DNA from: a virus
Length of the DNA stretch: 29,924 nucleotides
Virus record (IMG/VR): IMGVR_UViG_3300046167_000053
Location: 1-29,924 of that record
Reading direction: 5' to 3' (one strand)
The notes under the pieces are model-generated. The model had not been told where the DNA came from. It saw only the letters and a program-made list of their open reading frames with translations, and made no database searches. Positions 50-29,924 of the stretch are shown here, one piece after another (positions within the stretch are counted from its first letter, which is position 1; the number at the start of each line of letters is the position of its first letter). The position numbers were made by a program, and so were the translations under genes.

Positions 50-427
50 ATGACTAATAAAGAAAAAGCACTAAAATTAATTAACGAGTATTTAGCAAAG
101 CAAGAGCCACAAAAAGTAGAGTTATCTAAATATGATTTTACCGAATTTAAAAAACAATATGATAAAGCGTTTTCTAATTATAGAACAGATTTTAGAAAAT
201 CTATAAATCAAGCAAAACAAAGTGCAGATTTATATTTTAAAACCTTAAATGACATACTACAAGATGCAGACAAATTAGCTGATGAGTTTGGTAATAAAGC
301 AGAAGATTTAGGTTTAGAATATAGAGGAACTAAACCTTATCAACAATTTCAAGAAATTAAAAAAATTATATTAAGTGCAATATCTAATGCAAGAGAGAAG
401 CAAAAAGATATTTCTAAAATAATGTAA
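50..427 (+). CDS. small helical protein, possible head-associated protein (paralogue A)
   Basis: A 125-residue, Lys/Asp/Glu-rich protein that looks entirely alpha-helical, with no membrane segment or Cys. I do not recognise a named family. It lies between the capsid protease and the scaffold/capsid genes, so a role in the virion head or its assembly is a positional inference. It resembles the product of 854-1234 in length and layout: both begin with an ALK-IN segment, then QKxEL around residues 20-25, a long coiled helix, and a DLGxE segment near residue 88. The start has the A-rich context AAAACAAAATG typical of Bacteroidota genes, six bases after the protease stop. Confidence 0.7.
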   Translation: MTNKEKALKLINEYLAKQEPQKVELSKYDFTEFKKQYDKAFSNYRTDFRKSINQAKQSADLYFKTLNDILQDADKLADEFGNKAEDLGLEYRGTKPYQQFQEIKKIILSAISNAREKQKDISKIM

Positions 428-450
428 TGCGTAAGGTAGCGATACAATAA

Positions 451-837
451 ATGAAAAGATTTAAACAATTCTTTACACCAAGTAGAACAAGTCCAAAGGG
501 TGGGCGCAGAGCGTGTTTATGCAAGGATAATACCTACTCTATAAAGTGCTGTGATGGTAGTTTAAGGGCGCAAGGGATTGGTAGTACAGTCGGACAAGAA
601 ACAACACCGCCAGAAGGTAGCTACGGATATAAAATACAACGCTGTGGGCATAGCCAACAAAAACACGTTTGGAACGGAGAAGAACTAACAATAGGTAATG
701 TATATTATTTTGATTTAGTACACGATGGACACGATGGGTGCTATACTGTATTAAGTAGAGATGATGAAACAAGTGGCTTTGAATGGCAAAGCGTTACTGC
801 TTATGATAATTGTACAACTTGTGAAAATGCAAATTAA
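451..837 (+). CDS. small Cys-rich phage structural-region protein
   Basis: A 128-residue protein with eight Cys and several His residues. The N-terminal block (residues 1-45) is basic and contains RTSPKGGRRACLCKD then CCDGSLRAQGIG, which resembles a conserved protein I associate with the capsid region of Bacteroidota phages. The middle (about 80-120) is beta-rich and ends in CTTC. The cysteines could bind metal or cross-link, but no standard zinc-finger spacing is obvious. It sits between two paralogous helical proteins, upstream of the scaffold and capsid genes. Function is unknown; a minor head protein is inferred from position only. Confidence 0.7.
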   Translation: MKRFKQFFTPSRTSPKGGRRACLCKDNTYSIKCCDGSLRAQGIGSTVGQETTPPEGSYGYKIQRCGHSQQKHVWNGEELTIGNVYYFDLVHDGHDGCYTVLSRDDETSGFEWQSVTAYDNCTTCENAN

Positions 838-853
838 TTAAATAACTATAAAA

Positions 854-1234
854 ATGAGAAATTACAAAAACGCTTTAAAGCATATTAACAAAGAGGAACT
901 ATCTACTCAAAAGATTGAACTTGCTTTAGTTGATGATATTGAAAAAACTTATAATAAAATAAAATCTGATGCAGATGCTTTAAGCGGTGCTATAAGAAGA
1001 GCAGCAAATGAAGTAGATGACATTGCTAACAAATCAAAAGCTATAGTTAAAAGAATTGATGCTACAGATAGCGATGTTAAAAAATTAGTTTCTTCTGCAA
1101 AAGATTTAGGGATTGAACTACCACCAGAAGCAAAAATATCTATTAGACAATTACAAGCATATAGAAGTGATTTATCAGAATTACAATCAAGAGCAGATAA
1201 AGCCGCAAATGGTCTTTATGCTATGTTAGGATAA
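854..1234 (+). CDS. small helical protein, possible head-associated protein (paralogue B)
   Basis: A 126-residue all-helical protein with heptad-like spacing of hydrophobic residues over residues 25-120 and no Cys. It resembles the product of 50-427 (shared ALKxIN start, QKIEL, and a KDLGIE segment), so the two are probably diverged duplicates on either side of the Cys-rich gene. It starts at ATG 854 with the A-rich leader CTATAAAAATG. The late-promoter-like motif at 1243-1274 follows directly, so this gene probably ends the transcription unit that begins at the protease. Function unknown; head morphogenesis is an inference from position. Confidence 0.7.
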   Translation: MRNYKNALKHINKEELSTQKIELALVDDIEKTYNKIKSDADALSGAIRRAANEVDDIANKSKAIVKRIDATDSDVKKLVSSAKDLGIELPPEAKISIRQLQAYRSDLSELQSRADKAANGLYAMLG

Positions 1235-1242
1235 TAAAAATG

Positions 1243-1274
1243 CAAAATTAATTTTTAACACTTATATATTAATA
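1243..1274 (+). promoter_or_regulatory. candidate phage late promoter, copy a
   Basis: CAAAAT starts at 1243, and 19 bases after its C begins TTATATATTAATATG (1262-1276), whose last three bases are the start codon of the scaffold-like gene. The same two-part arrangement with identical spacing occurs at 3530, 19885, 21418 and 28875. Whether it is a promoter is inferred. If it is, the transcript would begin at or very near the ATG. Confidence 0.5.
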
Positions 1275-1642
1275 TGAACACGAACGATATGATTAGTAAA
1301 ATCAAAGATGTTCTAAACTTATCCGAAGAAGTTAAGTTGGAACAACAAGCGTTAGAGAACGGTGCTGTTTTAGAAGCAGAAGCGTTTGAAGCTGGTAACG
1401 AAGTATTTATTGTTACCGAAGATGAGAAAGTAGCTGTACCAGTTGGAGAGTATGAACTTGAAGATGGTAAAATACTTGTAGTAGCAGAAGAAGGTCTTAT
1501 TGCTGAAATTAAAGAAGCTACCGCAGAAGAAGAAGTGGTAGAAGAAGAAGTAGAAGCAACAGAAGATGTAGTCCTTGAGAAGAAGAAAAAGAAGAAATGG
1601 GCTATGCTACTAAAGAAGAACTTGCAGAGGTTAAATCTATGA
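1274..1642 (+). CDS. probable scaffold/decoration protein, N-terminal part (frameshifted)
   Basis: N-terminal part of a very acidic head protein just upstream of the capsid gene. Residues 1-85 include a compact beta-rich block (FEAGNEVFIVTEDEKVAVPVGEYE), followed by a Glu-rich stretch. The frame then runs through an apparent single-base deletion near 1577-1580. Restoring one A would turn CTTGAGAAG into CTTGAAGAAG and lead directly into the frame of 1597-1905, giving one protein of about 210 residues. The final residues after the Lys run (KKKKKKWAMLLKKNLQRLNL) look out of character with the acidic protein and are probably read in the wrong frame. An acidic protein at this location suits a scaffold or decoration role, but that is inference. 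Confidence 0.65.
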   Translation: MNTNDMISKIKDVLNLSEEVKLEQQALENGAVLEAEAFEAGNEVFIVTEDEKVAVPVGEYELEDGKILVVAEEGLIAEIKEATAEEEVVEEEVEATEDVVLEKKKKKKWAMLLKKNLQRLNL

Positions 1643-1905
1643 TTGAGGAAATCAAAGCAATGTTAGAGCCTAAAGAGGACTTAAGCGCAGATGAGTTAGG
1701 AAACCTTGTAACAGAGGAACTATGCAAGCACGAAAAAGTAGAGTTAAGCGAAGTACCAGAAGAAGTACAAGCAGAACTTAACGAGCCAGCAGCCGAGCCA
1801 ATCAAAGCTAACCCAGAGGCAAAACAAAACCTATCAAAATTCAGTATCTCACAAAACAGAAGAATGAGTACATTAGATAGAGTAATGGCAAAATTTAATA
1901 ATTAA
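1597..1905 (+). CDS. probable scaffold/decoration protein, C-terminal part (frameshifted)
   Basis: This frame, -1 relative to 1274-1642, carries what looks like the rest of the same protein. It begins MGYATKEELAEVKSMIEEIK, a coiled-coil helix, continues through an acidic Pro-rich linker, and ends in a basic tail SISQNRRMSTLDRVMAKFNN. The basic, conserved-looking tail immediately before the capsid gene is what a scaffold's capsid-binding end would look like. There is no promoter or separate leader, so independent translation from ATG 1597 is unlikely. A programmed -1 shift on the A-rich run at about 1582-1590 is possible, but a sequencing or assembly deletion is simpler given two other indels in this genome. 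Confidence 0.6.
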   Translation: MGYATKEELAEVKSMIEEIKAMLEPKEDLSADELGNLVTEELCKHEKVELSEVPEEVQAELNEPAAEPIKANPEAKQNLSKFSISQNRRMSTLDRVMAKFNN

Positions 1906-1928
1906 TAAACAACTAAAAACTAAATAAA

Positions 1929-2006
1929 ATGAGTGTATCAATTACATCAAGTTATAGCGGAGAGTTCAGTGGCAAATACGTAGCCGCAGCTGCTTCTCTC
2001 GGCTGA
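1929..2006 (+). CDS. major capsid protein, N-terminal piece (frame broken)
   Basis: ATG 1929 follows an A-rich leader (CTAAATAAAATG). The first 21 codons read MSVSITSSYSGEFSGKYVAA then A. The frame hits TGA at 2004-2006. If one base near 1992 is skipped, translation continues LLSADTLDKGNITI and enters the long frame of 2035-2862, giving a continuous capsid protein of about 310 residues. The joined sequence (GEFSGKYVAAALLSADTLDKG) looks like a typical capsid N-arm, so the break is almost certainly one extra base in the assembly or a real inactivating indel, not a separate gene. Confidence 0.75.
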   Translation: MSVSITSSYSGEFSGKYVAAAASLG

Positions 2007-2034
2007 CACATTAGACAAAGGCAATATCACAATT

Positions 2035-2862
2035 ATGCCTAACGTTAAGTTTAAGTCTGTAATCAAAAAGGCTTCAACTGACAGTATCGTAAAAGACGCT
2101 ACTTGCGACTTTCAAACTGGACAAGGGACATTAACTCTTACAGAGAAAATCCTTCAGCCAGAAGAATTTCAAGTAAACCTTGACATCTGTAAAAAAGACC
2201 TACATTCGGATTGGGAAGCTGCACAAATGGGATATTCTGCATTTGACAACCTACCAGCTAACTTTTCTGATTTTGTATTGGCTCACGTTGCTGCTAAAGT
2301 AGCTGACCGCACAGAAAGAAACATTTGGAGTGGAAATACTTCAACTTCTGGACAATTTAACGGATTTGCTACATTGTTAGCTGCTGATGGAGATTTGCCA
2401 TCTGGACAAGATATTACTGGTACTGCTGTAACTGCTGCAAACGTAGTTGCTGAATTAGGAGATGTTGTAGATGCTATTCCAAGCACAGTTTACGGAAGTG
2501 AAGATTTAGCTATCTATGCTGCTTCAAACGTAGTTCGCGCATATACTCGTGCTTTAGGCGGTTTTGGTGCTGCTGGAGTTGGCGCTAACGGATTTGAGAA
2601 CAAAGGAAACAACCAAGTATTAGGTAACCTTTTCTTTGATGGTATCCCAGTAATTCCTTGTAGAGGTGCTGCTGACGATATGATTATCGCTGCTGAAAAG
2701 TCTAACCTTTTCTTTGGTACTGGTATCTTAAGCGACCTTAACGAAGTAAGAGTTATTGATATGGCTGAAACAGACGGAAGCCAGAATGTTCGTGTAGTGA
2801 TGAGATTTACTGCTGGCGTACAATACGCACAAGTATCTGACATCGTTTACAGAACTGTATAA
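2035..2862 (+). CDS. major capsid protein (main part; true start at 1929)
   Basis: 275 residues of the major capsid protein, which builds the icosahedral head. The frame is open from 1993, so the visible Met at 2035 is internal. Features include an extended N-terminal region with ILQPEEFQVNLDICKKD, a helical spine with FSDFVLAHVAAKVADRTERN, and a C-terminal half rich in Ala/Gly ending GVQYAQVSDIVYRTV. Its size (about 310 residues when joined), position after a scaffold-like gene and a following terminator suit an HK97-fold capsid protein. Codon use is rich in GCT and ACT with few rare codons, as expected for a highly expressed gene. Confidence 0.85.
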   Translation: MPNVKFKSVIKKASTDSIVKDATCDFQTGQGTLTLTEKILQPEEFQVNLDICKKDLHSDWEAAQMGYSAFDNLPANFSDFVLAHVAAKVADRTERNIWSGNTSTSGQFNGFATLLAADGDLPSGQDITGTAVTAANVVAELGDVVDAIPSTVYGSEDLAIYAASNVVRAYTRALGGFGAAGVGANGFENKGNNQVLGNLFFDGIPVIPCRGAADDMIIAAEKSNLFFGTGILSDLNEVRVIDMAETDGSQNVRVVMRFTAGVQYAQVSDIVYRTV

Positions 2863-2882
2863 TAATTAATTAATCAACGTAG

Positions 2883-2916
2883 AAAGGGGTGGGGCAATTT
2901 ACCCTACCCTTTTTTA
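2883..2916 (+). terminator. rho-independent terminator after capsid gene
   Basis: GGGTGGGG (2887-2894) pairs with CCCTACCC (2902-2909) with one G-U pair, extended by A-T pairs, around a 7-base loop CAATTTA. A run of six T follows (2910-2915). It lies 20 bases past the capsid stop. The next gene begins 21 bases later without a visible promoter, so the terminator is probably leaky and sets a high capsid-to-tail ratio. Confidence 0.8.
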
Positions 2917-2936
2917 TTTAAAAAAACTATAAAAAT

Positions 2937-3464
2937 ATGGCTTGTTCATTAACAACTGGTAGAAAAGTACCTTGCAAAAGCGCAGTAGGTGGTATTAAAA
3001 CTATTTACTTTGCTGACTTTGGTACTTTAGGTGCTGCCACAATAGCTGCTGGAGAGATTACAGCATTTGCTGGAGACCCAGATTGGTTTCAGTTTGATGT
3101 TAAGGGTAACTCATCTTTAGAAACTGCTATCAATTCTTCTCGTGAGAATGGTACAACTTTCTATGAGAGTACACTTAATCTTACACTTACATTCCAAGAC
3201 AAAGCGACACAAGAGGAACTTAAACTAATTGCACACGCAAGACCACACATTGCAATAGAGGACTACAACGGAAACTATTTCGTTATGGGATTAGAACACG
3301 GTGCTGATGTAAATGGTGGTACTATTGTAACTGGTGCTGCAATGGGAGATTTAACTGGGTACACAATCACAGCGGTAGCGCAAGAAACTGCTCCGCCTTA
3401 CTTTGTGACTGGGTCAGTAATTACTGCTGATGCTTCTGCTTCACAAATCGACCCAACTGCATAA
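2937..3464 (+). CDS. probable major tail tube protein
   Basis: A 175-residue protein rich in beta-strand residues, Thr, Ala and Gly. It begins MACSLTTGRKVPCKSAVGGI and contains FQFDVKGNSSLETAINSSRE and TTFYESTLNLTLTFQDKAT, a pattern of alternating strands like tail-tube proteins of siphoviruses, in which strands form the inner sheet of the tube. It lies directly after the major capsid gene, is bounded by terminators on both sides, and so may be expressed at high level. No direct motif proves the role; a second capsid-decorating protein is the main alternative. Confidence 0.55.
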   Translation: MACSLTTGRKVPCKSAVGGIKTIYFADFGTLGAATIAAGEITAFAGDPDWFQFDVKGNSSLETAINSSRENGTTFYESTLNLTLTFQDKATQEELKLIAHARPHIAIEDYNGNYFVMGLEHGADVNGGTIVTGAAMGDLTGYTITAVAQETAPPYFVTGSVITADASASQIDPTA

Positions 3465-3486
3465 ACACAATTAGGGTTTTAAATTT

Positions 3487-3517
3487 AGGGTTATCTTAAC
3501 GGATAGCCCTTTTTTTA
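3487..3517 (+). terminator. rho-independent terminator
   Basis: AGGGTTATC (3487-3495) pairs with GATAGCCCT (3502-3510) over nine base pairs including one G-U, with loop TTAACG, followed by seven T (3511-3517). It closes the capsid/tail-tube unit just before the candidate late promoter at 3530. Confidence 0.85.
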
Positions 3518-3529
3518 TGCCTTACAATG

Positions 3530-3563
3530 CAAAATAAATTAGTTTTGTTTATATATTAATATG
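3530..3563 (+). promoter_or_regulatory. candidate phage late promoter, copy b
   Basis: CAAAAT at 3530, then 19 bases from its C the 15-base motif TTATATATTAATATG (3549-3563) identical to copy a. The preceding bases TGCAAAATWAA are also shared with copy a at the same distance. It lies directly after the terminator at 3487-3517 and before the gene at 3561, which is the natural place for a new transcription start. TAGTTTTG at 3540-3547 also matches the host -7 element TAnnTTTG, so host sigma could use it too. Confidence 0.55.
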
Positions 3564-3911
3564 AAGCTAATAGGCACAAACGGAAATAAGACCTTTAAGA
3601 TAATACCAAGACAATATATTAATGGTGGTATAACAGTAAATCTTACAAGCGAAAGTACTGGTACAAACGTAAACTTAACTCCTACTGCATCAACTGATGG
3701 TAATTATATGAGTTTTGATGCGGTTTTTGGAGCGCTAACAGAAGGCGATTTTTACATATTAGAAGTTAAGAACGGAACTGCGGTAATATACAAAGACAAA
3801 GTATTTTGCACAGACCAAACAATAAACCAAACTACTAACGACTACTACTCTATTAACAAAGATGAGTATGTACAAGAAGATAGTTTTGATAACGATTACA
3901 TTATATTATGA
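3561..3911 (+). CDS. small beta-rich structural-region protein
   Basis: A 116-residue protein with predicted beta-sandwich character (alternating short strands such as KTFKIIPRQYINGGITVNL and GDFYILEVKNGTAVIYKDKV). It is placed immediately before the portal gene with a 4-base overlap (ATGA). Its C-terminus, DEYVQEDSFDNDYIIL, resembles the ends of two other proteins in this genome (small protein at 7537-7710 and the large tail protein at 24323-26986), in which an acidic segment leads to a terminal YIII or TIIL. I do not recognise a named family. A virion component is likely from context. Confidence 0.65.
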   Translation: MKLIGTNGNKTFKIIPRQYINGGITVNLTSESTGTNVNLTPTASTDGNYMSFDAVFGALTEGDFYILEVKNGTAVIYKDKVFCTDQTINQTTNDYYSINKDEYVQEDSFDNDYIIL

Positions 3912-5728
3912 ACGATTTAAGAGTAGTAAATTTAAGCACCTACACAAGCCCACAAATTGTAGAGAAGTCTAACAAGGAATGGGTTAGCTATGGCGCAGAT
4001 AACAATTACTTCGCATACCTAATAGACCGTTACAATGGTAGCCCAACAAACAACGCTATTATTAACGGAGTTAGCGAAATGATATATGGCAAAGGTTTAG
4101 ATGCTTTAAACAGCAACAAGAAGCCAGAAGCATACGCTAAAATGATGTCTTTGTTTCACAAGGATTGTGTGCGTAAGTTATGCTATGACCTTAAATTAAT
4201 GGGTCAATGTTCTATGCAAGTTATATACTCTAAAGACCGCAAGACTGTGGCACAAGTAGAGCATATTCCAGTTGAGAACTTAAGAGCAGAGAAATGCAAC
4301 GACAAAGGCGAGATAGAGGCTTACTACTATTCTGACGATTGGAGTAAAGTAAAAAAAGCAGACGATTGCACACGCATACCAGCTTTTGGTTATTCAAAAG
4401 AAAACATAGAGATAGTATACGTTAAGCCTTACAGAGCTGGATATAAATATTATTCAAGCCCAGACTATCAAGGTGGTTTACAGTATGCAGAGTTAGAAGA
4501 AGAAATATCTAACTACCATTTAAACAACATCCTTAATGGACTTGCACCAAGTATGTTAATTAACTTTAACAACGGTACTCCAAATGCAGAGGAACGTCAA
4601 ATGCTTGAGAATAGAATATATCAAAAGTTTAGCGGTAGTAGTAATGCTGGTAAATTTATATTAGCGTTTAACGACAACCCAGAGAGTGCAGCTACAATAG
4701 AGCCAATACAATTAAGCGATGCGCATAACCAATACCAATTCCTTTCAGATGAGAGTGGTAAAAAAATAATGGTAGCACATAGAATTGTAAGCCCTATGTT
4801 GTTGGGTATTAAAGACAGTAGCGGTTTAGGTAACAACGCAGACGAGTTAAAGACTGCATCTATACTAATGGATAACACCGTTATTAGACCGTTTCAGACA
4901 CTTTTAATAGATGCCTTTGATAGTATATTAGCTTACAATAATATTAGCTTAAAACTATACTTTAAGACCTTACAGCCTTTAGAGTTTACAGACCTTGAAA
5001 ACGTAGAGGATGAAGAAACTAAAGAAGAAGAAACTGGTGTTAAGTTAAGCGCAGAATTACCAGACGAATTAGGTAGCGATATAGCGGATGCACTTATAGA
5101 TTTAGGGCAAGAAGAAGAAGAACTATTTAAGGATTTTGAAGTAATAGACGAAAGAGAAGTAAACTATGATGAAGAACAAGGGTTGGATGAGGTAATTACA
5201 GACCTTAACAAACCTAAAGACAAAAGTTTACTATCAAAGATTTGGGAGTTTGTAAGTACTGGTAGCGCAAAGCCCTATAAAGAGAGTGAGCAAGATGGTA
5301 CAAGTAAACAAACAAAAGAAGAAGGTAATGAGTTTTTAGTACGTTATATGTACAGCCCACAAAGATATAGTGCAAACTCAAGAAAGTTTTGCAAGAAGAT
5401 GGTAGATGCTAAAAAGGTATATAGAAAAGAGGATATTATTTCTATGGACACAAAAGTAGTAAATGCTGGATTTGGAAAAGGCGGCAGCGATACTTACAGT
5501 ATCTGGCTTTATAAAGGCGGTGCGAGATGTCAGCATAAATGGCTTCGTAAGACTTATGTACGTAAAGATGGTGCTAAAGGGTTAGGCGATGCTATAAGTA
5601 CAACAGAGGCAAGGAAAAGAGGTTTTAAGCCAGAGGCTAATGCACAAGAAGTACCAGTTGCACCAAAGGATATGAAGTATAAGGGCTATACAGCAGAGTA
5701 TTGGAACAAAATGAAATTTAGAAACTAA
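3908..5728 (+). CDS. portal protein with C-terminal extension
   Basis: A 606-residue protein forming the dodecameric channel at one head vertex, through which DNA enters and leaves. Residues 1 to about 345 carry the portal-like region: YLIDRYNGSPTNNAIINGVS, then VIYSKDRKTVAQVEHIPVEN and IVYVKPYRAG, then KIMVAHRIVSPMLLGI, all characteristic of SPP1/HK97-type portals in Bacteroidota phages. An acidic linker (about 355-450, many Glu/Asp) joins a C-terminal domain (about 475-606) with YMYSPQRYSANSRKFCKKMV and GGARCQHKWLRKTY. That C-terminal Cys/His-containing domain is not part of a minimal portal and may be a fused head-morphogenesis module. The gene overlaps its upstream neighbour by four bases and its downstream one by one base. 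Confidence 0.8.
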   Translation: MNDLRVVNLSTYTSPQIVEKSNKEWVSYGADNNYFAYLIDRYNGSPTNNAIINGVSEMIYGKGLDALNSNKKPEAYAKMMSLFHKDCVRKLCYDLKLMGQCSMQVIYSKDRKTVAQVEHIPVENLRAEKCNDKGEIEAYYYSDDWSKVKKADDCTRIPAFGYSKENIEIVYVKPYRAGYKYYSSPDYQGGLQYAELEEEISNYHLNNILNGLAPSMLINFNNGTPNAEERQMLENRIYQKFSGSSNAGKFILAFNDNPESAATIEPIQLSDAHNQYQFLSDESGKKIMVAHRIVSPMLLGIKDSSGLGNNADELKTASILMDNTVIRPFQTLLIDAFDSILAYNNISLKLYFKTLQPLEFTDLENVEDEETKEEETGVKLSAELPDELGSDIADALIDLGQEEEELFKDFEVIDEREVNYDEEQGLDEVITDLNKPKDKSLLSKIWEFVSTGSAKPYKESEQDGTSKQTKEEGNEFLVRYMYSPQRYSANSRKFCKKMVDAKKVYRKEDIISMDTKVVNAGFGKGGSDTYSIWLYKGGARCQHKWLRKTYVRKDGAKGLGDAISTTEARKRGFKPEANAQEVPVAPKDMKYKGYTAEYWNKMKFRN

Positions 5729-10469: not shown

Positions 10470-10871
10470 ATGGCAAAAAAAAAGACTTTAAAGTATTGGA
10501 AGAATAAGATTGATAAACCTTTTCACGAGTTTATAAGACGTAGAGATGCGGATAACAATACTGGTTATTGTAATTGTATAAGCTGCGGTAAAAAGGTACA
10601 CTTTACAGAAACAGATGCTGGACACTTTATTGGTAGACAACACTTAATCACAAGGTACGATGAAAGCAACGTACACGCTCAATGCAGAAAGTGTAACAGA
10701 TTTGAATATGGTAGACAGTATGAGTATAGTATAGCTTTGGGGCAAGAACTATCACAAGAACTACTACAAAAGTCAAGAGGGGTACTAAAACTTACAGACC
10801 CAGAATGGCAAGAAATATTTGACCAATACAAGACTAAACTACAAGAACTAAAAGACAAACAAAACTTTTAG
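10470..10871 (+). CDS. ninG: NinG/Rap-like recombination protein
   Basis: A 133-residue protein of the lambda NinG family, which helps phage recombination (lambda Rap acts as a branch-structure endonuclease with the Red pathway). Diagnostic parts are NCISCGK (Cys36, Cys39), DAGHFIGRQH (His52, His58) and NVHAQCRKCN (His69, Cys72, Cys75), forming an HNH-like zinc site. The N-terminal helix DKPFHEFIRRRD is also typical. It lacks the longer N-terminal part of lambda NinG. It is the first gene of the early block and stands alone between a promoter and a terminator region, away from the other recombination genes. Confidence 0.8.
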   Translation: MAKKKTLKYWKNKIDKPFHEFIRRRDADNNTGYCNCISCGKKVHFTETDAGHFIGRQHLITRYDESNVHAQCRKCNRFEYGRQYEYSIALGQELSQELLQKSRGVLKLTDPEWQEIFDQYKTKLQELKDKQNF

Positions 10872-17258: not shown

Positions 17259-18077
17259 ATGAAAACAAAAACAAAAACAAAAAGAACAATTTACACAAAA
17301 AAAGATTTTAATAATGTAGTAATACCGACTTGGCAAAGATGGAAGAACGAAAAGAATGTTAAGGATTTAGCGGAAGCAGTTTATGAAAATGGACAGCTTC
17401 GCGATGTACTTATATGTGTTACAAAGGATGGAACTAAAATATTAACAGATGGTAATCACTTGTATAACGCAGTTTTTAATTGTCTTAAATATAGAAAGAT
17501 TAATGTTTTAGAGAAACAAGTAAAAGACAATGAAGAAGCAAGGAAAACTTTTATATCATTTAACACAAGGGGGAAATCTTTAAAGGTTATAGATTATATT
17601 GTTAGCTATGCTGGAAGTGGTAATAAAGATTATAAAAGATTTTTATTAGAAGTTATGAAAAGTCCTAACAACTTAAAAGAAGCTGAAAATGTTTATGGTA
17701 AACTTTTCACTATACCAGCTTTAGTTTCTGTTTTTTTAGGGAAAACAAATAAGGTTAAAAAAGGTATATGCGAATTGCAAAAAAATCACAATAGACTTTT
17801 AGAGTTGGTTGAGTATTTAGGTCAAAACTATTTGTATGATGGAAGATTAATAAAGCATCTTAACAAGAATGGTAAGTCAATGAGGTTAAATGGTGGTAGC
17901 ATTATACCAGTTTTAAACAAAGTTAAAAGGAACGATAAAATAATGTCTATGTCAAATAAAGAGATATTAAACTTACTAATTGATTTTACTTTTTATCATT
18001 ACAACTCAATGGAGAATTGTACTTTTACTAAAGATGCTGCGGAGAAAAGTTTTAATAGTTATTTACAAACACTATGA
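17259..18077 (+). CDS. ParB/Srx-like domain protein paired with Mom-like gene
   Basis: A 272-residue protein. Residues about 15-80 resemble the ParB/Sulfiredoxin fold: VIPTWQRWKNEKNVKDLAEA, then ENGQLRDVLICV and KILTDGNHLYNAVFNCL, matching the ParB pattern of a preference/partner sentence followed by xDGxHR. The Arg of that motif is replaced by Tyr here. The rest (100-272) is helical and lacks a DNA-binding motif I recognise. It overlaps the Mom-like gene by four bases, so the two act together. ParB-like proteins next to modification enzymes are known in phages, where they are thought to act as ATP/CTP-using partners. Role in base modification is inferred. Confidence 0.65.
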   Translation: MKTKTKTKRTIYTKKDFNNVVIPTWQRWKNEKNVKDLAEAVYENGQLRDVLICVTKDGTKILTDGNHLYNAVFNCLKYRKINVLEKQVKDNEEARKTFISFNTRGKSLKVIDYIVSYAGSGNKDYKRFLLEVMKSPNNLKEAENVYGKLFTIPALVSVFLGKTNKVKKGICELQKNHNRLLELVEYLGQNYLYDGRLIKHLNKNGKSMRLNGGSIIPVLNKVKRNDKIMSMSNKEILNLLIDFTFYHYNSMENCTFTKDAAEKSFNSYLQTL

Positions 18078-18766
18078 AAAAACAATATATATACTCAACA
18101 CAGTCATCTTTGTGGGGGGATGCAGTATGTTTAGGTTTTGGCACAGATGAATTTTATATAAAAGAAATAGACAGAAAACTTGCAAATGATATTATAGTTA
18201 AAAATCATTATAGTGGCAAATTTTATAATGGCACTTATATACATCTTGGTTTATTTAATAGTAATGAAATAATAGGTGTATTGCAATATGGATACGCTAT
18301 GAACCCAGCAAGTTGTGCAAGTGTTGTAGAGGGAACAAAAAAAAATGAATATTTAGAACTAAACAGAATGTGGATAGCAGATGATGTAGGTCAATACCCA
18401 GAGAGTAGAGCAATAAGTTACTCACTTAAATATATAAGACGTAAATACCCTAAAATAAAATGGATACAAAGCTTTGCTGACGAAAGATGTGGTGGTTTTG
18501 GAATAGTTTATCAGGCTTGTTCTTTTGGTTATTATGGAGAGCATCTTAATAAATTTTGGGAACTTGATGGAGAAACTTTTCATAATTCTATTAAAACAAG
18601 CGAAAAAGCTGGTAAGAGGGGTTATAATTTGCTTAACAATCCTAAAAATAAAGATAGAGTAATAAGACACGAATTAAGACAATTTAGGTACATAAAGTTT
18701 TTAGACCAAAGAGAAAAAAAGAAATGTAAACATAAAGAGCAGCCATATCCAAAACATTATAAATAA
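18074..18766 (+). CDS. Mom-like DNA modification protein (GNAT-type fold)
   Basis: A 230-residue protein of the Mom type. Phage Mu Mom adds a methylcarbamoyl group to adenine and shields phage DNA from host restriction. Evidence: NHYSGK at 44-49 (Mu Mom and relatives carry a similar HYSG), YIHLGLFNSNEIIGVLQYGY (55-74), ELNRMWIADD (95-103), SRAISYSLKYIRRKYPKIKW (111-130) and SFADERCGGFGIVYQACSFG (133-152), the last part resembling the GNAT acyl-CoA-binding core. The C-terminus is basic (about 195-230), suiting DNA contact. It is paired with the ParB-like gene. It could modify a base other than adenine; the exact product is not predictable. Confidence 0.75.
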   Translation: MKKQYIYSTQSSLWGDAVCLGFGTDEFYIKEIDRKLANDIIVKNHYSGKFYNGTYIHLGLFNSNEIIGVLQYGYAMNPASCASVVEGTKKNEYLELNRMWIADDVGQYPESRAISYSLKYIRRKYPKIKWIQSFADERCGGFGIVYQACSFGYYGEHLNKFWELDGETFHNSIKTSEKAGKRGYNLLNNPKNKDRVIRHELRQFRYIKFLDQREKKKCKHKEQPYPKHYK

Positions 18767-20127: not shown

Positions 20128-20215
20128 GTATGGTAAACCTAAAGATAGCGTAGACATAAACTCTTCAGAGGGCTTAAACATTAATTTTAGAGATTTATTA
20201 AAATTCGTTGATTGA
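20093..20215 (+). CDS. terminase small subunit, C-terminal part (frameshifted)
   Basis: This +1 frame, open from 20093, reads DMRALQLYLGYRYGKPKDSV then DINSSEGLNINFRDLLKFVD and stops at 20215. It has a charged helix and acidic end as expected for the oligomerisation and portal/large-subunit contact region of a small terminase. No promoter or leader precedes it, and it overlaps the large subunit start by eight bases, so it makes sense only as the continuation of 19951. Confidence 0.65.
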   Translation, partial: DMRALQLYLGYRYGKPKDSVDINSSEGLNINFRDLLKFVD

Positions 20216-21413
20216 GGTAAAGAAAAAATATATGCCTATTGTTCAGAGTGACAGTAGGTACTACATAGTTAGTGGTGGGCGTGGTTCTGGAAAGTCATTT
20301 TCAGTAAACGCCCTTTTAGTTATGCTTACCTACGAACAAGGTCATACAATACTATTTACACGCTATACATTAACATCTGCATATATATCTATCATACCAG
20401 AGTTTATAGACAAGCTTGAACAGTTTGGCTCAATAGAACACTTTCACATAACTAAAGACGAGATACTAAACAAAAAGACTGGAAGCAAAATAATATTCAG
20501 AGGTATAAAGACTTCAAGCGGTGACCAAACCGCAAACCTTAAATCCTTACAAGGTATTACTACTTGGGTGGTAGATGAAGCTGAAGAACTAACAGACGAG
20601 CAGAAGTTTGACACCATAGATTTATCCGTAAGAGAAAAAGGCTTACAGAACAGAGTTATACTAATACTAAACCCAACAACAAAAGAGCATTTTATATACA
20701 AGCGTTTCTTTGAGGACAGAGGGGTACAAGAGGGAAGCAATATAACCAAAGACAACACAACCTACATACACACCACATACATAGACAACATAGACAACTT
20801 ATCTAAAAGCTATATAGACCAAATAGCACAGATGCGTGAACGTAGACCAGAGAAGTATAAACAACAAATGTTAGGTGCGTGGTTAAACAAAGCAGAGGGG
20901 GTTATATTTAGCAACTGGACAATAGGAGAATTTAAAAGATACAGCGTTAGTGTGTGGGGACAAGATTACGGATTTGCAGCAGACCCAAGTACACTTGTTG
21001 AGGTAAACATAAACACAAGCACAAAGACAATATATTTAAAAGAGTGCTTTTACTTACCAAGACTAACAACATCACAAATAGCAGAGTTAAATCAGAAACA
21101 CGCAAAGGATGGTTTAATTGTAGCTGATAGTGCAGAGCCAAGACTAATAACAGAACTTAAAAGACATTGTAACGTAAAGCCAAGTATTAAAGGGCAAGGT
21201 AGTGTAACGTATGGCATAAGCCTATTACAAGACTATGACCTTGTTGTAAGCCCAGACAGCACAAACCTAATTAAAGAACTAAACAACTACTGCTGGTTAG
21301 AACGCAAGAGCAACACACCAATAGATAAGTACAATCACTTAATAGATGCGGTTAGGTATGCAGTAGGCTATCAATTACAAAATCCAAACAGAGGTAAATA
21401 CGCAGTACATTAA
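20208..21413 (+). CDS. terminase large subunit
   Basis: A 401-residue packaging motor that pumps DNA into the head and cuts it. ATPase part: VSGGRGSGKS (21-30, Walker A), then ITTWVVDEAEELTD (117-130, Walker B with catalytic Glu), and ILILNPTTKEHF (coupling motif). Nuclease part (RNase H fold): WGQDYGFAADPS (Asp253), LIVADSAEP (Asp307) and HLIDAVRYA (Asp380). This is the PBSX/Terminase_3-type family. The start is TTG at 20208; ATG at 20232 would remove eight residues. It overlaps the small subunit end by eight bases. The last codons lead directly into late promoter copy d. Confidence 0.9.
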   Translation: MIEVKKKYMPIVQSDSRYYIVSGGRGSGKSFSVNALLVMLTYEQGHTILFTRYTLTSAYISIIPEFIDKLEQFGSIEHFHITKDEILNKKTGSKIIFRGIKTSSGDQTANLKSLQGITTWVVDEAEELTDEQKFDTIDLSVREKGLQNRVILILNPTTKEHFIYKRFFEDRGVQEGSNITKDNTTYIHTTYIDNIDNLSKSYIDQIAQMRERRPEKYKQQMLGAWLNKAEGVIFSNWTIGEFKRYSVSVWGQDYGFAADPSTLVEVNINTSTKTIYLKECFYLPRLTTSQIAELNQKHAKDGLIVADSAEPRLITELKRHCNVKPSIKGQGSVTYGISLLQDYDLVVSPDSTNLIKELNNYCWLERKSNTPIDKYNHLIDAVRYAVGYQLQNPNRGKYAVH

Positions 21414-21417
21414 CCAC

Positions 21418-21451
21418 TAAAATAATTTGAAAACGTTTATATATTAGTATG
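21418..21451 (+). promoter_or_regulatory. candidate phage late promoter, copy d
   Basis: TAAAAT at 21418, then 19 bases from its T the motif TTATATATTAGTATG (21437-21451), whose last bases are the ATG of the tail chaperone gene. Same two-part spacing as copies a, b, c and e. Confidence 0.55.
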
Positions 21452-22093
21452 AAAGTTAATTTAACTATACCAACAACACTCAACGAGATAACTTTAGGGC
21501 AGTACCAAGAGTATGCAAAATTAGCTGATTTAAGTGAAACAGACTTACAACTAAAGACCATTGAGATATTCTGCAACGTGCCAGAGTTAGTGGTTAGAAA
21601 TATGAAAGCCACAGACATAGTAGAGATATGCAGTATTATAAATGGTATGTTTGACACAAAGCACCAGCTTATAAGTATGTTTAAAATGAATGGTGTTGAG
21701 TATGGCTTTATACCAAGCCTTGAGGATATGTCTTTTGGCGAGTATGTAGACCTTGATACTTTCATAGGGGATAACGATAATTTGCACAGAGCAGTAAACG
21801 TACTATACAGACCCATAGAACACAGAAGCGGAAGCAGATACACCATAAAAGACTACGAGCCTAACAATAGCGAGCTGGCAAAAGATATGCCTTTAGATGC
21901 TGTACTTGGTGCGGTGGTTTTTTTTTACAATTTAGGCAAGGACTTATCGATAGCTATGCTGAACTCTTTGGACAAGAAGAACGAGGAGATTTTAGCGCAG
22001 TATCTAACTTCACAGCCAAATGGGGGTGGTACAACTCAATCTATGGGTTATCTAACGGAGATATTACAAAATTTGAACATATCACTAAATTAG
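21449..22093 (+). CDS. tail assembly chaperone, short form (gpG-like)
   Basis: A 214-residue protein beginning MKVNLTIPTTLNEITLGQYQ. It is helical with several acidic segments and lies between terminase and the tail-completion and tape-measure genes, where siphoviruses place the tail chaperone pair (lambda gpG/gpGT) that coats the tape measure during tail assembly. After residue 159 (codon TTT at 21923-21925, within a run of nine T) the frame continues as a plausible protein with ATLDKKNEE-type helices and stops at 22091-22093, ending ILQNLNISLN. The -1 frame is also open across this region; see the frameshift product. Confidence 0.7.
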   Translation: MKVNLTIPTTLNEITLGQYQEYAKLADLSETDLQLKTIEIFCNVPELVVRNMKATDIVEICSIINGMFDTKHQLISMFKMNGVEYGFIPSLEDMSFGEYVDLDTFIGDNDNLHRAVNVLYRPIEHRSGSRYTIKDYEPNNSELAKDMPLDAVLGAVVFFYNLGKDLSIAMLNSLDKKNEEILAQYLTSQPNGGGTTQSMGYLTEILQNLNISLN

Positions 22094-22179
22094 GTGTACA
22101 CGAGTGCTTAACATACTTAACATACACAAAAGAAAAAAACGAAATAGAAGCAAGACAAATAAAAAGTAAATTTAAATAG
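21449..22179 (+). CDS. tail assembly chaperone, long frameshift form (gpGT-like)
   Basis: A -1 shift on T_TTT_TTT at 21919-21925 would extend the first 159 residues by 84 residues to give a 243-residue fusion. The -1 part reads LQFRQGLIDSYAELFGQEER, then GDFSAVSNFTAKWGWYNSIY and GLSNGDITKFEHITKLGVHE, ending KEKNEIEARQIKSKFK with stop at 22177-22179. It has no ATG, GTG or TTG start of its own between the T-run and the end of the short form, so a frameshift is the only obvious way to translate it. The WGWYxSIY and ITKF segments look like a conserved protein, as in gpT-like extensions of tail chaperones. Confidence 0.65.
21918..21926 (+). promoter_or_regulatory. -1 ribosomal frameshift slippery run (T9)
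   Basis: Nine T in a row, in zero frame GTT TTT TTT TAC, containing the heptamer T TTT TTT. After slippage the next codon is TTA at 21925. The position in the second half of the chaperone gene, with open frames on both sides, is that of known tail-chaperone frameshift sites. A T9 run is also prone to length error in sequencing. Confidence 0.6.
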
Positions 22180-26986: not shown

Positions 26987-27126
26987 TGATAAAACTAATT
27001 TTAGACAGCTTAAAATACGCAAACGGAGAAACAGAAAACATCCGAATAGCACAAGGTAAACACAAACTACCTACAACACTAAAAGAGGGTTACAAAGCAC
27101 TTAAACAAGAAATAAAATGGCAATAG
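26986..27126 (+). CDS. small basic protein
   Basis: A 46-residue frame starting in the stop of the large tail protein (TAATG) and overlapping the tape-measure start by ten bases. The product MIKLILDSLKYANGETENIR then IAQGKHKLPTTLKEGYKALK is a small basic alpha/beta peptide. Coupling on both sides supports it as real; no function known. It may assist tape-measure or tail-tip assembly by position. Confidence 0.5.
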   Translation: MIKLILDSLKYANGETENIRIAQGKHKLPTTLKEGYKALKQEIKWQ

Positions 27127-28871
27127 AGAAAACAGTTAATATTAACGTAGATAGTAAAGATGCTGTTAAAGGCATTGAAAACATTAACTATGAACTAAAC
27201 CAAGTAGACAAAGGAGCTGCTAAAGCTGAAAAAGGAGTAGGTGGTATATCTAAAGGTTTTAAGGGTTTAGGTACAGCTATTAAGGCTGCTGGTATTGGTT
27301 TAGTCATTGCTGCGTTAGGTAAACTTGCAGAGATATTTATGCAAAACCAAAAGGTAGCTGACTTATTCAATACAGCATTTGAGGCGGTTAGTATTGCGTT
27401 TAATGACTTTGTTGGTTTTATTGTAGATAATAGCGGTGCGGTTATAGACTTCTTTAAGGCAATATTTGAAAATCCAGTTGAAAGCCTAAAAAAGTTAAGT
27501 GCTGCTATTAAGGCTAATTTTATTGAAAGACTTAATAGTGCTATAGATACATTAGGTTTTTTAGCAAGTGCAGTAAAGAAAGTATTTAGTGGTGATTTCG
27601 CTGGTGCTTTAGAAGATGTTAAAAATGCTGGCAAAGAAAGTATAGACGCAATAACTGGTGTAAATAATACTTTTGATAAAGGCGTAGAATTTGTAGAAAA
27701 AAACAAGGATGCAATAAAAGGCTATATAAAAGAAACAATAAAATCTGCAAAAGCAAATGTAGAACTTGCTAATTCAGCAGAGTTAGCAGCCGCACAACAA
27801 TCCTTACTTGTAGAGAAATACGATATACAAGCCGAGCAGTTACGACAAATACGAGATGAAGAACGTAATAGTATTGAGGATAGAAGAAAAGCAAATGACC
27901 AATTATTAGAAGTATTAGCAGAGCAAGAAAAAGCAATGTTAGCCCAAGCTGATGCTCAATTGAGGTCAGCACAAGCAGAGTTAAACAAAAACGCATCCAT
28001 AGAAAACCAAGTAGCATTAACAGAAGCACTTGCAAACAAGCAAGGTGTGTTAGCGCAGATAGAAGGCTTTAGGTCAGAACAAAAAGCAAATGATTTAGCT
28101 TTAGACAGAGAGGAAGTAGAACTAACCAACACTAAATTAGAAAGCGAAAGCAAACTATCTATTGAAAGACAAAGATTTAACGCAGAGCAAATAGAAGATG
28201 AGGTTAAAAGGTTAGAAGCCCTTAAACAAATTGATTTATTAGAAGCTGAACAAGAAGCAATAAGATTACAAGCTATTGTAGATAATGCAAACGCTGGCAC
28301 ACAAGCTAAAATAGACGCACAGATAGCCCTTGATGAGTTTACGGAACAGTCAAGGCAAACTAATTTACAAAGAGATACAGAGTTAGAAGATGCCAAGAAA
28401 AAATTAGATGATACAACTGCTGAAGCTAAAATGAAAAACGTTGAGGCAATTAATGGTGCTTTAAATGGTTTGAGTGCATTAGCTGGCGATAACGCAGAGG
28501 CACAAAAAGGCATAGGGATAGCACAAGCAATAATAGACACATATACTGGTGCAAACAAAGCCCTTGCACAAGGCGGTATAGCTGGCCCAATAGCCGCTGC
28601 TGGTATTATAGCTTCTGGTTTAGCAAACGTTAAGACTATTATAAGTACAAAAATACCAAAGCCAAGTGGTAGTGCTGCTGGTGCTGGCGCACAAGCGCAA
28701 CAACAACCACCATCATTTAACATAGTAGGCGCAACAGAAACAAGCCAATTAGCACAAGCAGTAGGAGGACAAACACAACAGCCAGTACAAGCGTATGTAG
28801 TAGCTAATGATATTACAACAGCACAGAGTTTAGAGAACAACATTGTAGAGGGTGCAACGATTGGAAGCTAA
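27117..28871 (+). CDS. tape measure protein
   Basis: A 584-residue helical protein setting tail length. N-terminal half: charged coil (VDSKDAVKGIENINYELNQV), Gly/Lys-rich KGFKGLGTAIKAAGIGLVIA hydrophobic segment (about 49-73) and Ala/Phe-rich region. Middle (about 205-435): long coiled coil rich in Glu, Gln, Ala and Leu. C-terminus: Ala/Gly-rich hydrophobic GIGIAQAIIDTYTGANKALA and GPIAAAGIIASGLANVKTII. This layout (coiled coils with hydrophobic, membrane-prone segments) is typical of tape measures. Assuming about 1.5 angstroms per residue, the tail would be roughly 85-90 nm. No muralytic domain is visible. Confidence 0.8.
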   Translation: MAIEKTVNINVDSKDAVKGIENINYELNQVDKGAAKAEKGVGGISKGFKGLGTAIKAAGIGLVIAALGKLAEIFMQNQKVADLFNTAFEAVSIAFNDFVGFIVDNSGAVIDFFKAIFENPVESLKKLSAAIKANFIERLNSAIDTLGFLASAVKKVFSGDFAGALEDVKNAGKESIDAITGVNNTFDKGVEFVEKNKDAIKGYIKETIKSAKANVELANSAELAAAQQSLLVEKYDIQAEQLRQIRDEERNSIEDRRKANDQLLEVLAEQEKAMLAQADAQLRSAQAELNKNASIENQVALTEALANKQGVLAQIEGFRSEQKANDLALDREEVELTNTKLESESKLSIERQRFNAEQIEDEVKRLEALKQIDLLEAEQEAIRLQAIVDNANAGTQAKIDAQIALDEFTEQSRQTNLQRDTELEDAKKKLDDTTAEAKMKNVEAINGALNGLSALAGDNAEAQKGIGIAQAIIDTYTGANKALAQGGIAGPIAAAGIIASGLANVKTIISTKIPKPSGSAAGAGAQAQQQPPSFNIVGATETSQLAQAVGGQTQQPVQAYVVANDITTAQSLENNIVEGATIGS

Positions 28872-28874
28872 ATA

Positions 28875-28908
28875 CAAAAAATAATTAAAAACATTATATA
28901 ATAGTATG
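28875..28908 (+). promoter_or_regulatory. candidate phage late promoter, copy e
   Basis: CAAAAA at 28875, then 19 bases from its C the motif TTATATAATAGTATG (28894-28908) whose last bases are the ATG of the capsid protease. One base differs from copies a and b at position 8 and one at position 11 of the motif. It begins the head-gene unit that crosses the window ends. Confidence 0.5.
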
Positions 28909-29924
28909 CGGATAGTAGAACTAATTTTAGACGAAGAACAAGAAATAGGTATAGAAGCTATTAGCGTAGTGGAAAACCCAGCAATAGAAGAAGATTTTAT
29001 TGCACTTAAATCGCAAGAGTTTAAACTTGCAGAGGTAGACAAGGAAAAGCGTATTTTAATGGGTGCGTTACTTATTCCAAATAAGCCTATATACAGACGA
29101 AACGGAGAAGATGAGTATTATATATATTTCTCAAAAGATACTGTCTTAAAAGCCTCGCAAATGTACTTAATGCAAGGCAAACAAAACAACAGTACATTAG
29201 AACACCAATACCAAATAAACGGACTATCATTAGTTGAGAGTTGGATAGTAGAGGACAAGGTACACGACAAGAGTGTTAAGTATGGTATGGATTTGCCATT
29301 AGGTACTTGGGTAGGTGCGGTTAAAGTAAACAACGATGAGATTTGGAACGAGTTTGTAAAGACTGGTAAGGTTAAAGGGTTTAGTATAGAAGGCTACTTT
29401 GCTGATAAAATGGAAAGACCTAAAGACCAAACTCTAGGGGACTTTATGACTGATGAGCAAAAGCAAAAAGAGTTAGCAGCTATTGAAGAAGCTGAAGCAG
29501 AGTATTTATTAAGTGAGATACGAGCCATTATAAAAAGCGACAAGCGTGTAAAGGGTGGCAAGAAGATGATACTTGAAAGCTATACAGACTATCCAAGCGG
29601 TGTAAAGAACAACGCAAAGCGAGGATTAGAACTTAACGAAAAGGTAAACAACAAATGTGCAACCCAAGTAGGTAAGGTAAGAGCTCAACAATTAGCACAA
29701 GGTAAAGCGATAAGCGTAGAAACTATTAAGCGTATGTATTCTTATTTGTCAAGAGCAGAAGAATACTACGACGAGAACGATACAAAGGCTTGCGGTACGA
29801 TTTCATACTTGTTATGGGGTGGTAAAGCTGGCAAGCGTTGGGCATTAAGCAAATTAAAAGAGTTAGACTTAATAGACCTTAAAGCACCTTGCCAAGATGG
29901 TTATGAGCAATACGGAATGAAAAT
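28906..29924 (+). CDS. capsid maturation protease, XkdF/S78-like (continues at 1-43)
   Basis: 353 residues once joined across the window ends; the first 340 codons are here. Peptidase S78_2 (XkdF-like) region: IGIEAISVVENPAIEEDFIA (14-33), NNSTLEHQYQINGLSLVESW (94-113) with His100 and Ser112 as probable catalytic pair, LPLGTWVGAVKVNNDEIW (130-147) and KVKGFSIEGYF (155-165). Such proteases cut scaffold or capsid arms during head maturation. The C-terminal third (about 195-340) is a separate helical domain, with GGKKMILESYTDYPSGVKNN and EYYDENDTKACGTISYLLWG, often fused to this protease in Bacteroidota phages. It starts behind late promoter copy e. Confidence 0.85.
   Translation, partial: MRIVELILDEEQEIGIEAISVVENPAIEEDFIALKSQEFKLAEVDKEKRILMGALLIPNKPIYRRNGEDEYYIYFSKDTVLKASQMYLMQGKQNNSTLEHQYQINGLSLVESWIVEDKVHDKSVKYGMDLPLGTWVGAVKVNNDEIWNEFVKTGKVKGFSIEGYFADKMERPKDQTLGDFMTDEQKQKELAAIEEAEAEYLLSEIRAIIKSDKRVKGGKKMILESYTDYPSGVKNNAKRGLELNEKVNNKCATQVGKVRAQQLAQGKAISVETIKRMYSYLSRAEEYYDENDTKACGTISYLLWGGKAGKRWALSKLKELDLIDLKAPCQDGYEQYGMK

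Follow-up and report, generated by a model that had tools for sequence, protein, structure and literature searches.

We suggest that, in a large and for the most part uncultured family of flavobacterial tailed phages, the tail-chaperone pair arises through programmed RNA-polymerase slippage at a run of nine or more Ts, with the stoichiometry set in transcription and both alternative tails under selection, a reading that we regard as evenly poised. The window, i.e. the whole 29,924-nucleotide stretch analysed (IMG/VR record IMGVR_UViG_3300046167_000053, positions 1 to 29,924), contains one such gene (Table 1), whose zero-frame open reading frame (ORF) comprises a folded N-terminal domain (approximately residues 1-172) followed by a zero-frame tail. 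In the proposed mechanism the host RNA polymerase would stutter on the T9-T12 tract, and ordinary ribosomes would enter the -1 frame on messages that had gained one U or lost two; a U10 message would give a 243-residue fusion and a U7 message a 242-residue fusion. Where a single U had been lost, translation would end no more than about three codons further on, and only the N-terminal domain would be made. Messages without a shift would yield the 214-residue protein, i.e. the shared N-terminal domain with its conserved zero-frame tail, and in the minority 243-residue product this tail would be swapped for an all-helical 84-residue -1 domain. If the products act as they do in lambda, coating of the tape-measure protein would fall to the shorter one and recruitment of the tail-tube protein to the longer. 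We infer from the sequence both that the two products are made and that the polymerase slips.

Ribosomal recoding is classically illustrated by frameshifted tail chaperones. Polymerase slippage here, if correct, would show the two mechanisms to be interchangeable in phage assembly, as is already known for dnaX, and would suggest a fusion fraction much above lambda's roughly 1 in 30. No report of a T9 run or of slippage in tail-chaperone genes was found in the open-access literature searched.

Table 1. Positions in the window of the putative recoded gene, its parts and two neighbouring genes
Feature	Position	Strand	Basis
Zero-frame ORF, 214 aa, G-like product	21449..22093	+	ATG 21449, stop 22091-22093; homologues
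T9 slip site, zero frame GTT TTT TTT TAC	21918..21926	+	Run of at least 9 across relatives
In-phase T_TTT_TTT heptamer inside T9	21919-21925	+	Sequence
Open -1 frame	21871..22179	+	Bounded by TAG 21868-21870 and TAG 22177-22179
-1-frame C-terminal domain, 84 aa, T-like, all-helical prediction	21925..22176	+	F..KWGWY..GDITKF..KEKNE motifs
Dual-coding overlap: zero-frame tail and first two thirds of -1 domain	21927..22093	+	Divergence, resampling, zero-frame stop position
Terminase large subunit, upstream neighbour	20208..21413	+	phrog_2 and others, E 2.9e-47
Probable tail tape-measure protein, downstream	27117..28871	+	phrog_3336, E 9.6e-10; phrog_1538, E 6e-4

Layout of the gene in the window and in related phages

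A preliminary description of this DNA had drawn a zero frame running to 22093, which our coordinates reproduce, and a -1 frame from 21869 to 22179, of which the end stands and the start is moved by two bases. Its two predicted products of 214 and 243 residues agree with the lengths recomputed here, the fusion being 159 + 84 residues with -1 reading starting at the TTA at 21925, past the heptamer. Equally, the -1 frame of the window was found to lack a start codon of its own, with no ATG, GTG or TTG preceding the conserved block.

To place the gene among relatives, the two proteins, zero-frame and -1, and alignments built from each were used as queries against viral contigs, and the Nonlabens phage records were added; bacterial genome contigs, searched likewise, contributed four Bacteroidota metagenome-assembled contigs, including Flavobacteriaceae and Winogradskyella. 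The resulting set holds at least 550 usable loci and at least 389 distinct 300-base sequences, with identity in the N-terminal half falling to approximately 29%. Loci retrieved by the C-terminal queries were found blind to the slip site and are therefore unbiased in that respect. Judged from these sequences, the gene is one of marine flavobacterial phages, with a shared front half and two different conserved tails. The lambda G/GT-like layout with a T-run slip, proposed from the window alone, is kept by all of the at least 550 loci among the matches listed. At all listed loci the WGWY domain lies in the -1 frame, with its stop 80-97 codons past the slip, and a WGWY block continuing the zero frame was found at none of them. 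In 383 of 384 testable distinct sequences the zero frame is open, and the -1 frame closed, upstream of the slip. The one exception, L061 (IMGVR_UViG_3300021373_000801), has a zero frame broken upstream relative to all other members whilst its T9 and -1 domain are intact; the disruption is probably an assembly error or a pseudogene.

Poly-T tracts are prone both to phase variation and to sequencing error, and the two frames might accordingly reflect DNA-level variation or a miscounted run, the true or alternative allele being one continuous frame. We consider this barely credible: the two halves share a frame in none of the 384 testable distinct sequences (the L061 irregularity lies upstream of the run), loci with T9, T10 and T12 all retain the -1 relation, and both frames are conserved downstream of the run. 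The worry that the T count itself was wrong is likewise met by the recurrence of the same run in at least 550 loci from many assemblies, which argues against a read error.

The only cultured relatives found are the Nonlabens (Persicivirga) phages P12024L and P12024S, whose annotation splits the same gene, its T9 in an identical phase, into two hypothetical ones (40/41 and 38/39, respectively); tblastn searches for cultured phages beyond this pair returned nothing except chance-level matches to Bacillus phages. P12024L, cultured from seawater, carries the gene at approximately 29% identity, and the KWGWY domain (KWSWY in P12024S) lies in the -1 frame as it does here; unlike in the window, the zero frame ends 25 codons past the slip. 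The GenBank annotation of P12024L (gp40/gp41) embodies a further reading, that of two separate genes with the -1 frame translated alone by coupling or reinitiation. In that phage a TAATG does join the genes, its ATG overlapping the zero-frame stop, and an ATG precedes the conserved block in the -1 frame of 11 of 389 distinct sequences. However, 260 of the 389 have no ATG, GTG or TTG there, a conserved L.FR....Y.EL block lies directly 3' of the T run and 5' of the annotated P12024L start, and separate genes would leave the T run without a role, so that we regard this reading as very improbable. The paired hypothetical genes of P12024L and P12024S are indicated instead to be a single recoded gene.

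The same division appears in the PHROGs catalogue, which lists the two halves as unrelated families of unknown function: phrog_32199, corresponding to the N-terminal half, matches 95 of 95 aligned members, and phrog_38404, corresponding to the -1-frame half, matches 19 of 93 relatives. On the reading given here these two families become one gene.

Coding in both frames downstream of the T run

In the window both frames remain open for approximately 168 nucleotides beyond the T run, as had first been noticed. Among relatives the zero frame is open for 50-88 codons beyond the slip, and in 279 of the 383 distinct sequences that could be counted its stop comes at 54-57 codons. The Nonlabens-phage type departs from this, with a stop at 16 or 25 codons; the long overlap is thus widespread but not obligatory.

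Mean pairwise divergence at zero-frame codon positions 1, 2 and 3 was calculated for 72 non-redundant close relatives. Upstream of the slip the values are 0.31, 0.22 and 0.54, the pattern of normal single coding; in the overlap they are 0.20, 0.27 and 0.28, indicating that both frames are held; and in the part read in the -1 frame only they are 0.15, 0.41 and 0.20, as for normal -1 coding. By this measure of codon-position divergence both frames are under purifying selection in the overlap, and the long dual-coding region proposed in the preliminary description is real. When the -1 protein was fixed and its synonymous codons resampled, the zero frame stayed open for at least 50 codons in approximately 2% of trials, and for the window's 55 codons in 0.6%; in the reverse resampling, with the zero-frame protein fixed, the -1 frame was open in approximately 0.9%. 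One protein does not, therefore, account for the other frame being open.

Length of the T run and the nature of the slip

Among the matches listed, 451 loci have T9, 97 have T10 and two have T12 (550 of 550 loci, 389 distinct sequences), and neither T7 nor T8 was found at the slip site in the at least 550 loci, including those from C-terminal queries. Across 584 kb of the remaining forward ORFs in related loci, a run of nine or more Ts was seen a single time. T runs as such are unremarkable in the window, where 41 matches to T7 were seen against 45 expected.

These counts need to be read with the encoded residues in mind. The usual zero-frame residues at the site are V, I or L, then F-F, then Y, W, F or a TTG leucine; V/I/L-F-F-Y together with the heptamer gives T9 automatically, so that most loci are uninformative on mechanism. 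The informative loci are those in which the flanking codons depart from this pattern. Codon 4 is CTG in three groups (L192; L482/L486; L527), and codon 1 is TTT in each; codon 1 is AGT in a further locus (L310), and codon 4 is there TTT. A T lost at one end of the run is thus accompanied by a T gained at the other in three or four lineages. When codon 4 was shuffled against codon 1, all runs remained at nine or more in 1 of 20,000 shuffles with 216 lineages (clustered at 90% identity), in 2 of 20,000 with 165 lineages (80%) and in 136 of 20,000 with 111 lineages (70%), i.e. p of approximately 5e-5 to 7e-3 with the tree ignored, the value of 0.7% coming from the coarsest clustering, which no longer includes the AGT lineage. 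Since changes at the two ends compensate, the run length itself appears to be selected beyond the seven-base heptamer, an argument that rests on these three or four exceptional lineages. The T run was correctly picked out at the start as the slip site, whereas the ribosomal heptamer T_TTT_TTT then named is less certain, the conserved unit being at least nine Ts, more than such a heptamer requires.

We lean slightly towards programmed transcriptional slippage as the switch, over ribosomal -1 frameshifting, because the nine-T threshold coincides with a known requirement of RNA-polymerase slippage and because there is no stem-loop signal downstream. Efficient slippage by bacterial RNA polymerase in vivo is reported to involve runs of nine A or T (PMC5009743, a review of experiments), Tn with n>8 is a listed motif of transcriptional realignment (PMC3711429), and in type III secretion genes the slippage product amounts to 15-55% (PMC4256274). 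The genes mxiE, spa13, mxiA and spa33 of Shigella, dnaX of Thermus thermophilus and tssM1 of Citrobacter rodentium, all subject to transcriptional slippage, share with the window gene an A/T homopolymer of at least nine as the principal signal and the lack of an evident stimulatory RNA structure, and their two products made in a ratio match what is predicted here. They differ in that the present gene is a putative phage virion-assembly gene with a run conserved family-wide and a long dual-coding overlap, and in that slippage is here deduced.

Programmed -1 ribosomal frameshifting at U_UUU_UUU, as first proposed, which would be the lambda G/GT mechanism with another heptamer, has an appreciable though less than even chance of being correct, the extra Ts then being a by-product of hydrophobic codons. 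The in-phase T_TTT_TTT is present at every listed locus, a ribosomal shift on U_UUU_UUU would yield the identical 243-residue protein, most T9 runs follow from V/I/L-FFY plus the heptamer, and characterised lambda-type chaperone pairs use ribosomal shifts (PMC5009743). Any nine-T run contains the in-phase heptamer, and every locus consequently also fits ribosomal slippage by its sequence. Nevertheless, a T8 with an intact in-phase heptamer would serve the ribosome, yet T8, like T7, is absent from the listed loci, and in the exceptional lineages compensation keeps the run from falling below nine. Many different heptamers are in use among other chaperone genes, whereas no variation of the X_XXY_YYZ kind occurs among the listed loci. 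A conserved stem-loop downstream of the run was not found either: the mean folding z was approximately 0 in 50 relatives, and an alignment of 27 sequences contained no consensus base pair. Polymerase and ribosomal slippage could also operate together.

Two further candidates for evidence were set aside. A hairpin predicted in the window at approximately +25 to +80, considered as a stimulator, is not a feature of the family by folding z or alignment. A third-frame stop, considered as a sign of slippage, lies within 0-3 codons in 115 of 115 representatives, but in 114 of the 115 the two protein sequences leave no alternative to it.

The window also has A9 runs in two forward ORFs, at 10475-10483 (ORF 10470-10871) and 18337-18345 (ORF 18074-18766), which are possible further slippage sites by their sequence. 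The second of these ORFs strongly matches Mom-like DNA modification proteins (phrog_1384, E 7.7e-57).

Identity of the products and genomic setting

The layout, weak matches to tail families and the probable tape-measure gene downstream point to a two-product gene resembling the lambda G/GT tail-assembly chaperones. Lambda uses its short form to bind the tape-measure protein and its fusion to bring in tail-tube subunits (PMC5009743). Like gpG/gpGT, the window gene would give an N-terminal product and a minority fusion to a short -1-frame C-terminal domain, with a probable tape-measure gene downstream. Unlike lambda, it has a run of at least nine Ts in place of a mixed heptamer, approximately 168 nucleotides of dual coding after the slip, with both tails conserved, in place of a zero-frame stop some 26-36 nucleotides further on (averages cited in PMC10885494), and a position beside terminase; no sequence or solved-fold match was found.

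AlphaFold2 models are confident for the N-terminal domain, of low confidence for the zero-frame tail and helical in the -1 domain; for the 214-residue product pLDDT is approximately 90 over most of residues 1-160 and below 50 for residues 181-214. Sequence and fold searches of the PDB with either product returned no significant match (none with a fold E of 0.001 or less; best VIA Z 3.8). A BFVD fold match, gp10 of Flavobacterium phage 6H (E 1e-4), was considered as a member of the T-run family and rejected, having no nine-T run; it has only TTTTTTC, followed immediately by a -1 stop, and any shift would lie elsewhere. This distant fold relative (L326, 10352-10927, minus strand) does have a long -1 frame open after its stop.

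It is conceivable, though in our judgement unlikely, that the recoding is real and the protein is some other scaffold or connector factor encoded beside terminase. Neither Pfam nor NCBIfam gave a meaningful match, the PDB fold search was negative as above, and the gene adjoins terminase and is separated by four genes from the probable tape-measure gene, unlike lambda's direct upstream position. Against this, a late frameshift joining an N-terminal domain to a small C-terminal domain, 5' of a tape-measure gene, is a signature of chaperone function; weak matches to phrog_166 ('tail protein') were obtained for 37 of 95 members, and one of the BFVD neighbours bears the name tail assembly chaperone (E 0.11). 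The initial designation as a tail chaperone thus fits in layout, and its identity as such is suggested by that layout and the weak family matches.

The probable tape-measure product also matches a head-and-packaging family (E 1.3e-13). Elsewhere in the window, the ORF at 13087-13935 matches the phosphoadenosine phosphosulfate reductase family (phrog_424, E 2.3e-17). The contig ends in an open gene matching head maturation proteases (28906-29922), and its start (50-5728) holds small ORFs, a probable capsid protein and a portal; on the basis of these two ends, the contig may have been cut from a circularly permuted genome.
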